Origin: Carboxylicivirga sediminis
GTDB lineage: Bacteria; Bacteroidota; Bacteroidia; Bacteroidales; Marinilabiliaceae
DNA length: 51,280 nt
Direction: 5' to 3'
NCBI RefSeq assembly: GCF_018156225.1
Contig: NZ_JAGTAR010000038.1
Location: forward strand, 1 to 51,280
Made by a program: the position numbers and the translations under genes. The notes beneath the pieces were generated by a model, which was not told the origin of the DNA, did not search any database, and saw only the letters and a list, made by a program, of their open reading frames with translations. Positions 20,068 through 22,774 of the stretch are shown piece after piece. Positions within the stretch are counted from its first letter, which is position 1. Each line of letters opens with the position of its first letter.

Positions 20068-20853
20068 ATGAGCCAACATCAACACGAATCGACATTGATT
20101 GTATTTAATGAGTTACTGACAATAATGGACGAGCTGCGTGCAAAATGTCCTTGGGATAAGAAGCAAACGAATGATTCGTTGCGCACTCTCACCATTGAAG
20201 AAACCTATGAGTTGGCCGATGCGATACTGAAGAACGACCCAATGCTGATTAAAAAGGAATTGGGCGACTTGCTGCTGCACATTGTGTTTTATTCCAAAAT
20301 TGCGTCCGAAGCAAAAGACTTTACTATGGCTGACGTCATTAAAGCACTTAACGAGAAGTTGATATACAGGCATCCGCATATATTTGGTGATGTAGAGGCC
20401 AATGATGCGAAAACTGTGGAAGAGAATTGGGAAAAGCTGAAGTTGAAAGAAAAGGACGGCAATAAATCGGTGCTGGAAGGTGTACCTATGTCACTGCCGG
20501 CCATGGTGAAAGCCAATCGCATACAGGATAAGGCTCGTGGCGTAGGTTTTGACTGGGAACACAAAGAACAGGTGTGGGATAAAGTGAAAGAGGAGCTGGA
20601 GGAACTGATTGTTGAGGTGGAAGCCAATGATGAAGATAAGATGGAGGCTGAGTTTGGCGACTTGCTATTTTCAGTGATTAATGCGGCTCGTTTATATGGC
20701 GTTAATCCCGAAAATGCCCTGGAAAGAACCAATCGTAAGTTTATTAAGCGGTTTAATTACCTGGAAGAGAAGACGCTAAAGCAGGGTCGAGATTTGAAAG
20801 CCATGAGCCTGGCCGAAATGGATAAGATATGGGAAGAGGCCAAAAAGTTGTAA
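20068..20853 (+). CDS. Nucleoside triphosphate pyrophosphohydrolase MazG
   Basis: 261 residues with two tandem MazG domains. The first has CPWDKKQTNDSLRTLTIEET and ELGDLLLHIVFYSKIA, the second KVKEELEELIVEVEAND and EFGDLLFSVINAARL; the acidic ExxE...D residues bind Mg. It hydrolyses NTPs to NMPs and pyrophosphate, acting as house-cleaning enzyme. Close relatives in Bacteroidota have the same length. The gene is followed by 1.1 kb without genes. Confidence 0.95.
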   Translation: MSQHQHESTLIVFNELLTIMDELRAKCPWDKKQTNDSLRTLTIEETYELADAILKNDPMLIKKELGDLLLHIVFYSKIASEAKDFTMADVIKALNEKLIYRHPHIFGDVEANDAKTVEENWEKLKLKEKDGNKSVLEGVPMSLPAMVKANRIQDKARGVGFDWEHKEQVWDKVKEELEELIVEVEANDEDKMEAEFGDLLFSVINAARLYGVNPENALERTNRKFIKRFNYLEEKTLKQGRDLKAMSLAEMDKIWEEAKKL

Positions 20854-21049: not shown

Positions 21050-21285
21050 ACACGTAAGGTTGCTTTGTCAAACAAAAACGCATGTTAGTCATAAAAAATC
21101 AACCATTCGTCAATAACGAATAACATCTGAAGGTAAACCTCAGTAAACGCAAGTGAATTCACAATTCATTTTAAACACTCAAAGAAACTGAAACGGACGG
21201 TTTCTTAAAACACCCAACACTATTCAACATCCTTTTACCTCTGCAGCCAAGTTCTAACCCAAGAGAAACTGCAGAGGTTTTTTTT
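21050..21285 (+). ncRNA. Candidate structured noncoding RNA
   Basis: No gene of this strand is nearby except mazG, which ends about 200 bases upstream. Short stems can be drawn in series: ATTCG/CGAAT (21105-21121), CTGA-GG/CC-TCAG (21127-21143), TGAAT/ATTCA (21154-21168), AAGAAAC/GTTTCTT (21182-21206), and a 10-bp terminator stem (21237-21278) with T8. A TAAGGTTG box at 21055-21062 is one mismatch from TAnnTTTG but lies inside the proposed start, so the 5' end is unsure. A 3' UTR of mazG is an alternative. I do not recognise a known RNA family. Confidence 0.4.
21237..21285 (+). terminator. Strong intrinsic terminator with no nearby gene
   Basis: ACCTCTGCAG (21237-21246) and CTGCAGAGGT (21269-21278) form a perfect 10-bp stem with a 22-nt loop, followed by T8. 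It lies 384 bases beyond the mazG stop and just before the repeat array. Confidence 0.85.
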
Positions 21286-21399: not shown

Positions 21400-21840
21400 G
21401 CTTTTCGCGGTGTCGGTAATGCCTGCCTGCTGCTGTACACCACCATTCCGGTTGCCCCAATGGGTATCTGCAGCAGTTGACATACATGCATGGCGCCCAG
21501 CATGCCCATCTACAGCAGACGGAGGCCTTCCCGGTTGCCCAAACCCGGTTGTTCGTCGCAACAATAGCCTTTCTGGTAACCCGTAAGCACCTGTGCGTGC
21601 CAACAATGGCCTTCGCGGCTGCCCAAAGGCTCATCTACATCAGACGGAGGCCTTCCTGGTTGCCCAAAGCCGGTTGTTTGTTGCAACAATACCCATTCCG
21701 GTAGCCTGGAAGCACCTGTGCGTGTTGACAAAGCCCTTCCCGGCTCCCCAAATGCCCGTCTGCATCTGTAGGAGTCCTTCCTGGTTGCCCAAACCCGGTT
21801 GTTTGTTGCAACAATGGCTATTCTGGTTGCCCGGAAGCTT
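21400..21840. repeat. Phased tandem array, 11 units, 41/42-bp spacing, 125-bp supercycle
   Basis: A degenerate core TTC(C)nGGTTGCCC recurs eleven times. The central GG starts at 21409, 21450, 21492, 21533, 21575, 21617, 21658, 21700, 21742, 21783 and 21825, so the steps are 41, 42, 41, 42, 42, 41, 42, 42, 41, 42. Every third interval repeats: three linker types cycle, giving an exact 125-bp period over most of the array. Linker A holds a palindrome TTGTTGCAACAA, linker B CACCTGTGCGTG, linker C a CATCTACA(G/T)CAGACGGAGG-like sequence. The region is more GC-rich than its surroundings. The first two units are the most decayed. Confidence 0.85.
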
Positions 21841-21861: not shown

Positions 21862-21950
21862 GTAGTGAGTAGTTAGAAGGCATAAGGCATAAGGCAATAG
21901 CCAGAAACCCTCAACTTTAAACTCTCAACTCTCAACTTTAAACCCATCAA
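21862..21950. repeat. Low-complexity short-word repeats
   Basis: AAGGCAT occurs three times in tandem (21877-21897, last copy AAGGCAA), then CTCAACTTTAAA, CTCAACT, CTCAACTTTAAA (21910-21942). Similar reduplicated words lie at 12121-12176 and 49083-49226. Confidence 0.7.
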
Positions 21951-21953
21951 CCA

Positions 21954-22586
21954 CTAGTGCATTATATCAATCAATATCGGTTTAAGTCCGCTGAAGAAGA
22001 ACTCAACAGCAATTACCATAACAATGAGTCCCATCAGACGCATCAGAACATTGTTGCCGGTTTCCCCAAGCGCTTTAATAATTCGGCTGGAACTTAATAA
22101 GATGAAGTAGGTGAGTAGCACCACCAACGCTAATGCAGCAATCAGAACGGCAGCTCCAACCATACCACCAGCATCTTCCATCAATACAATGGCATTGGTA
22201 ATGGCGCCCGGCCCGGCTATCATCGGTATAGCCATAGGGGTAATTGAAATGTCATTCACGTATTTCTTTACTTCCGAATCTTTCAGCTTAACCTTGGTCA
22301 GGCGTGCCTGTAGCATATCCATGCCCATAATAAAGAAGATAACCCCGCCAACGATGCGAAAGCTATTTACCGAAATGCCGAAAAACTTAAAAAGCAGCTG
22401 TCCGGATAGGGCAAATGCCACAATGATAATGAAGCCAACCAAAGAGGCTTTTTTAGCAGTACGAGCCCGGTCCTGAGGTGTTAAGTCGGCACTCATGGTC
22501 ATAAATATGGGCATCACGCCCAATGGGTTGATGAGCGTAAAGAAAGAGGTAAACGCTAAAATGCCAAGGGTAATCAGTTCGTTCAT
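21954..22586 (-). CDS. MarC-family integral membrane protein
   Basis: 210 residues from the ATG at 22586; the frame extends to a TTG at 22610 but the family begins at about MNELITLGILAF. Six hydrophobic segments. Family blocks: FFTLINPLGVMPIFM, GGVIFFIMGMDML, and PMAIPMIAGPGAITNAIVLM. MarC proteins sit in the inner membrane; early claims about antibiotic resistance were not upheld and the transported compound is unknown. It lies next to the gene-free repeat region. Confidence 0.92.
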   Translation of the reverse strand: MNELITLGILAFTSFFTLINPLGVMPIFMTMSADLTPQDRARTAKKASLVGFIIIVAFALSGQLLFKFFGISVNSFRIVGGVIFFIMGMDMLQARLTKVKLKDSEVKKYVNDISITPMAIPMIAGPGAITNAIVLMEDAGGMVGAAVLIAALALVVLLTYFILLSSSRIIKALGETGNNVLMRLMGLIVMVIAVEFFFSGLKPILIDIMH

Positions 22587-22774
22587 TGTTTTTAGTGGCA
22601 AATGTATCAACCATTACCCTAACTTTATTTCAATAAGCAACTGATTTTTATCATAGATGAAAATGTTTTAACATGTTCCGATAGGTTAGTAAATGTTCTG
22701 TTATTGAAAAACGTGTGTTCAACATCTAAAAGCATTGCTTACCTTAGGTTCTGCTAAATAAAAATTATAAAATC

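Follow-up and report, generated by a model that had tools for sequence, protein, structure and literature searches.

Intergenic tandem arrays with 41-42-bp units and unlike sequences in the Carboxylicivirga lineage

Bacterial tandem repeats of constant size and variable sequence were described by Subirana and Messeguer with unit sizes of 20-21 (20-23) and 52 nt (PMC8161180, PMC6749651, PMC8625621); the 20-21 nt units correspond to two helical turns according to PMC8161180, and for neither size is an agreed explanation given in the accessible literature. As far as the accessible parts of these publications go, such repeats are non-coding, mostly comprise 4-10 units, occur as several sequence families of one length per genome, carry species-specific sequences with short sequences common to different arrays, and are seldom conserved in array length between strains. 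These properties are shared by the arrays reported here, common short sequences being seen in some of the groups, and the arrays represent a variant of this type that matches the description except for size, with units of 41-42 bp and a 125-bp supercycle instead of 20-21 (20-23) or 52 nt. A word search of PMC8161180 for "bacteroid", "42 nt" and "41-42" returned no hit. In the literature searched, judging by titles and the beginnings of abstracts and with a J Bacteriol 2020 survey outside the scope, no 42-bp class was described in Bacteroidetes.

Tandem non-coding units are also found in the BrickBuilt minisatellite/MITE of Porphyromonas gingivalis (PMC4596501), a member of the same phylum. According to the accessible part of that publication, BrickBuilt consists of a 23-nt unit with a leader and a tail carrying small inverted-repeat ends, none of which surround the array studied here. 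Tandem repeats of Borgs, as described in the accessible part of PMC9879509, are partly intergenic, arise independently, and evolve fast, similar to the arrays considered below. Their units of 18, 20, and 21 nt, for which that part states no single length, are perfect, A-enriched, and located in reading frames in about half of the cases, whereas the units considered here have diverged from each other, are rich in GC, and keep a single length.

The window, i.e., the complete stretch of 51,280 nt from Carboxylicivirga sediminis that was analysed (contig NZ_JAGTAR010000038.1 of the genome referred to as G000), contains a non-coding tandem array at positions 21404-21838 (+ strand). It is situated in the intergenic region between mazG, encoding a nucleotide pyrophosphohydrolase (20068..20853, + strand; Pfam MazG, 3.9e-37), and marC, encoding an integral membrane protein family member (21954..22610, - strand; Pfam MarC, 1.1e-54). 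In a comparison of mazG with named relatives, the best hits are 82-90% identical and assign the genome to Carboxylicivirga or its immediate neighbourhood. The GG dinucleotides of the cores are located at positions 21409, 21450, 21492, 21533, 21575, 21617, 21658, 21700, 21742, 21783, and 21825, corresponding to steps of 41, 42, 41, 42, 42, 41, 42, 42, 41, and 42 bp, and cores three apart are separated by 125 bp in seven out of eight comparisons and by 124 bp in the remaining one. Upon re-measurement, the eleven positions, the ten steps between them, and the register of 125 bp given in the original prediction were reproduced exactly, with two of the cores being weak, and the convergent orientation of the flanking genes as well as the non-coding character of the array were confirmed. 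Since none of the three overlapping ORFs of 90-100 aa matches a Pfam family and the 125-bp period is not divisible by three, a coding origin was rejected. The proposed phasing by four helical turns fits as well, with 125/12 equalling 10.4.

Tandem Repeats Finder (TRF) reported a period of 125 with 2.7 copies, 83% match, and 0% indels at 21504-21838. The self-match of the array at lag 125 reaches 0.69, whereas 500 shuffles did not exceed 0.37 at any lag from 20 to 199, and self-match peaks occur at lags 125, 83, 42, 41, and 84. Adjacent units are strongly diverged, with a self-match of 0.39-0.44 at lags 41-42. The GC content of the array amounts to 57%, versus 40% in the flanks. For nine out of the eleven cores, at most one of the 50,802 positions in the rest of the window reaches the same score, the exceptions being the cores at 21409 and 21492, which are equalled by 446 and 484 positions elsewhere in the window, respectively. 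The array is thus more safely described as nine clear and two degenerate cores than as eleven units. A CRISPR array was rejected, as the whole unit repeats and the linkers recur every 125 bp, versus the unique spacers between near-identical repeats of CRISPR loci.

Among the 59 other genomes searched, a strong match to the window array was observed in G011 only (86% identity over 476 bases, E 1.8e-160); the remaining seven matches in the 60 genomes including its own are 23-38 bases long with E values of 0.0016 or worse. The G011 orthologue (C5) occupies the same place in the same register, with 57 mismatches in 435 positions and no indel. In detail, a left degenerate part with a weak, a strong, and a weak core at 21409, 21450, and 21492 (21404..21503, + strand) is followed by a first 125-bp supercycle with 95% identity to the orthologous unit of G011 (21504..21628, + strand), a second with 84% identity to the first and 76% to the G011 orthologue (21629..21753, + strand), and a third, partial one of 0.7 copy with 82% identity to the G011 orthologue (21754..21838, + strand). 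At the same place in G013, a different array with a period of 41 runs off the contig.

The occurrence of further arrays was surveyed by TRF (at least 2.5 copies, unit of at least 15 bp), covering 748,495 bases of G000 including the window. The eight non-coding, non-tRNA arrays of G000 have periods of 22, 22, 23, 41, 42, 42, 42, and 125, i.e., five out of eight arrays found without period bias show a period of 41, 42, or 125 and the other three one of 22-23; under a null proportional to 1/length, the share of the 41/42/125 class, which was picked post hoc, corresponds to P ~4e-7. Four of these arrays lie beyond the window and have other sequences. Three first-order Markov resamplings of the sampled G000 DNA yielded zero TRF rows. 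An unbiased 352 kb of G011 contains periods of 22, 44, and 63 and none of 41-42 (44 and 63 being the arrays with units of at least 30, tRNA cluster aside); the four 41-42 arrays of G011 were found through similarity, outside this sample. No 41-42 array was detected in 400 kb of G002, which carry one array of 20, and no array at all in 200 kb of G021, and arrays of 16 and 21 were found in 200 kb of G015.

The census over all Bacteroidota samples comprises 46 rows with at least 2.5 copies, of which 12 coding ones (ORF of at least 130 aa) and four tRNA clusters (periods 138, 110, 130, and 112, recognized by sequence inspection rather than by a tRNA scan) were set aside. Of the remaining 30, 27 fall into classes of 20-23, 41-44, 62-66, or 125, which were chosen post hoc, and the other three have units of 16, 25, and 69. 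At least two 21-bp arrays (L128 and L131) look like triplets of 7-mers, and without them 25 out of 28 fit. At 80 Bacteroidota mazG loci (L098-L177), a unit of 21-22 bp was found for 12 out of the 16 tandem repeats that are neither coding nor tRNA clusters, and one of 42 bp for two.

BLAST searches starting from individual arrays or regions contributed C77 and C56 in G000, C9, C16, and C22 in G011, and nine arrays in G013, one of which (C419) had first been found by TRF. Besides the window array and its G011 orthologue, this amounts to 18 arrays in at least five groups. At least four of these groups occur in G000, namely the window array, L080/L187, L083 together with (by its core only) C56, and L090/C77, and one more in G013. 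Since no group was hit from another one in G000 when the regions of the window, L187, L083, and L090 served as BLAST queries, at least four groups of this genome and that of G013 share a unit length without general similarity. Several unrelated sequence families of one unit length are thus present within one genome, and the window array is not unique, a point missed in the original prediction: it belongs to a set of unlike sequences with the same unit length. Short sequences shared among arrays were observed for the CCTGCAACYTGCAGG and CATCC..GGATG groups. A 10-base string, CCCCAAATGC, spotted by eye in both the window array and L080, may be another such sequence.

Measurements in 15 of the 18 arrays yielded 82 steps, of which 52 are 42 bp, 29 are 41 bp, and one is 64 bp long; the latter results from a false anchor in the flank of L080 and is dropped by a 30-55 filter. 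In the remaining three arrays, 10 out of 10 steps are 41 or 42 bp. The spacing is regular to +/-1 nt over at least four units, except for L059, which shows three units at a contig end. Adjacent units in the 15 measured arrays differ at about 15% of positions (446/2,911). Because anchor placement relied on TRF periods of 39-44 and similarity guided the choice of some arrays, the unbiased case rests on the census and not on the steps.

Flanking sequence or location identifies four pairs of arrays in G000 and G011 as orthologous. Their unit numbers are 11 and 11 (window array and C5), 6 and 6 (C50 and C9), 5 and 13 (L083 and C16), and 4 and 15 (C56 and C22), respectively. Unit number therefore changes freely between the two species and unit length stays at 41-42. 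The latter two pairs support the unequal expansion proposed in the original prediction. Its proposal that spacing outlasts sequence agrees with the indel-free register shared with G011 and with 81 out of 82 steps of 41-42 bp elsewhere. Free variation of both unit number and spacing, which the prediction had set against itself, was observed for unit number and not for spacing. The palindromic 15-bp core CCTGCAACYTGCAGG is identical at 12 or 15 out of 15 positions across six arrays; the linkers of this family agree at 9-15 out of 26 positions between sub-families and at 21-23 out of 26 within them, and the total unit length is 41 in G013 and 42 in G000 and G011. These arrays were found by similarity, so that sharing as such is expected and the uneven sharing between core and linker is the point. 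Natural controls, namely an orthologous pair with 4 and 15 units and a single core combined with differing linkers, make the question of what measures the unit testable.

Taken together, we assign the window array to a set of non-coding "size-locked" satellites in intergenic DNA of the Carboxylicivirga lineage, and favour phased binding of an architectural protein as the explanation, with a probability of roughly 0.4. An architectural (nucleoid-type) DNA-binding protein, or a small set of such proteins, would contact each unit, and neighbouring contacts would have to share a helix face, so that only four-turn units (~41.7 bp) would be retained. Unequal exchange or slippage would add and remove units, and the 125-bp supercycle would then be the natural outcome of copying three diverged 41-42-bp units as a block. 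The constant length of 41/42 bp across unlike sequences hints that the cell measures DNA length or phase and not sequence. Phased binding is consistent with this constancy, with the change in copy number, and with a palindromic core that is kept as its linker varies; as groups within one genome share no sequence, one sequence-specific protein cannot bind all of them. Several further observations speak against it: four core-like patterns occur at chance-level frequency outside arrays, the arrays show no orientation preference and are lineage-restricted (G011 alone among 59 other genomes carries the window array, and the 400 kb of G002 are devoid of 41-42-bp units), the unbiased G011 sample lacks a 41-42 array, and the accompanying 22-bp arrays correspond to 2.1 turns. 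Concerning orientation, crude ORF calling placed genes on both sides of 12 of the 18 arrays, two of them in convergent, four in divergent, and six in tandem arrangement, and the convergent setting of the window array is thus not typical.

Nearly as likely as phased binding is a mutational length ruler, by which functionless arrays originate from a fixed-step duplication that makes units of ~41-42 bp from any local sequence and are expanded by slippage. The step could be set, for example, if a protein of fixed footprint or phase occupied the DNA during a polymerase or recombination event. Unlike sequences of one length, copy numbers of 5/13 and 4/15 between two species, the lack of an orientation preference, the confinement of arrays to some species, and core patterns that are not enriched outside arrays are all in good agreement with such a ruler; it leaves unexplained the steps of 41-42 bp where adjacent units have diverged as strongly as in the window array, and the conservation of a core with turnover of its linkers.

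Divergence data bear on both explanations. Between G000 and G011, the window array is less diverged (57/435) than the 4-fold sites of the two adjacent genes (72/189, P 9e-12), in favour of phased binding, and pooled 4-fold sites (467/2239) lie above it as well. Compared to other intergenic DNA of this pair (204/2282), the array is slightly more diverged (P 0.01) and hence not slower-evolving, which counts against phased binding. Constancy within one array is no evidence, since expansion copies the unit length. For the history of the window array, about 11 indels are expected from an indel-to-substitution ratio of 14/204 = 0.069, versus at most two one-base changes needed, again in favour of phased binding; the estimate is rough, since this ratio was counted by hand and so were the substitutions separating the three sub-units and the supercycles, and with a neutral indel ratio of 0.03 the deficit is not significant (P 0.13), which likewise weakens the case for phased binding.

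The sizes 20.8, 41.7, and 52 are 2, 4, and 5 times 10.4, an observation of our own that was not found in print in the literature searched (the J Bacteriol 2020 survey outside the scope). Units of 41-42 bp, with their 125-bp supercycle, form a third class that conforms to a simple rule of whole turns of ~10.4 bp, the fit being inexact for 22-bp arrays with 2.1 rather than 2.0 turns. One might speculate, although we consider this rather doubtful, that a sequence-independent bacterial ruler counts whole helical turns in making or keeping arrays, four here and two and five in the published classes; arrays might then form from any sequence, provided that the phase is an allowed one. As regards a possible origin of the 42-bp unit as a dimer of 21 bp, the self-similarity at half the period has a high rank in G000 arrays (2 of 38 for the window array, 1 of 39 for L080 and L083, 3 of 39 for L187, and 6 of 38 for L090) but ranks of 6 to 27 in five G013 arrays. 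A palindrome test, applied to five arrays of G013 among others, was nominally significant (uncorrected) for three of these and for L083; due to the lack of significance in the window units, a general palindrome rule was rejected as a defining feature.

Related arrays at several sites of one genome, i.e., on seven contigs of G013 and as the pairs L080/L187 and L090/C77 in G000, the latter with part of the flank duplicated too, would be expected from a MITE-like mobile element that, as BrickBuilt in P. gingivalis, carries tandem units to new places. We consider this very improbable, since the window array is not flanked by terminal inverted repeats, on which ground a BrickBuilt-like MITE with minisatellite was rejected, and since recent transposition would not be expected to leave a shared core with differing linkers. 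Furthermore, the plasmid and phage collections searched contain no match to the window array, and an origin from either was rejected. A dispersed repeat of about 40 bp adjoins the L187 array (L187:17359-17402) and recurs in G000, G011, and several genomes of the same genus. An 82-bp dispersed repeat at L090:14723-14804 occurs in many places in G000 and G002 and in few in G001.

A conserved small-RNA-like element (21148..21284, approximate ends, + strand), separate from the adjacent array, is situated between mazG and the array. It comprises the hairpin GAAACYGAAACGGACGGTTTC, the near-invariant CCCAACACTATTCAACATCC, and a terminator-like stem, and shows both-sided changes at 4 out of 16 predicted pairs over 11 sequences, a wrongly cut sequence (G009b) being left out. 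Matches were obtained in eight out of 13 other genomes of the genus, in the family member G022, and in G050 (26 bases), sometimes as two tandem copies. Rfam gave no match at gathering score on the window, and its weak matches, far under gathering scores, lie in this element. Since the array follows this small-RNA-like element, it might be transcribed and serve as a repetitive RNA sponge or antisense RNA, a reading to which we assign a low probability. Bacillus coagulans satellites are reported as transcribed in the accessible parts of PMC8161180 and PMC8625621, and the - strand of the window array folds slightly better than most shuffles (z -1.74; 4 out of 100 shuffles equal). No clear excess of folding was seen on the + strand (z -0.56) or in four other arrays analysed on one strand each (z between -1.50 and +0.87), so that the structured RNA suggested in the original prediction received no support from five arrays, the - strand of the window array being borderline, and a structured RNA family was rejected on these grounds together with the Rfam result. 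Moreover, the terminator-like stem with its T run, which a simple scan with a loop limit of 8 did not list, separates the RNA element from the array, five genomes (G004, G006, G008, G010, and G012) carry the element but lack a tandem array downstream within the stretches analysed, and the other arrays lie elsewhere. On the opposite side, 7-bp tandem repeats of AAGGCAT and AACTCTC directly follow the array at 21877-21937, and a different heptamer run occupies this place in G011.
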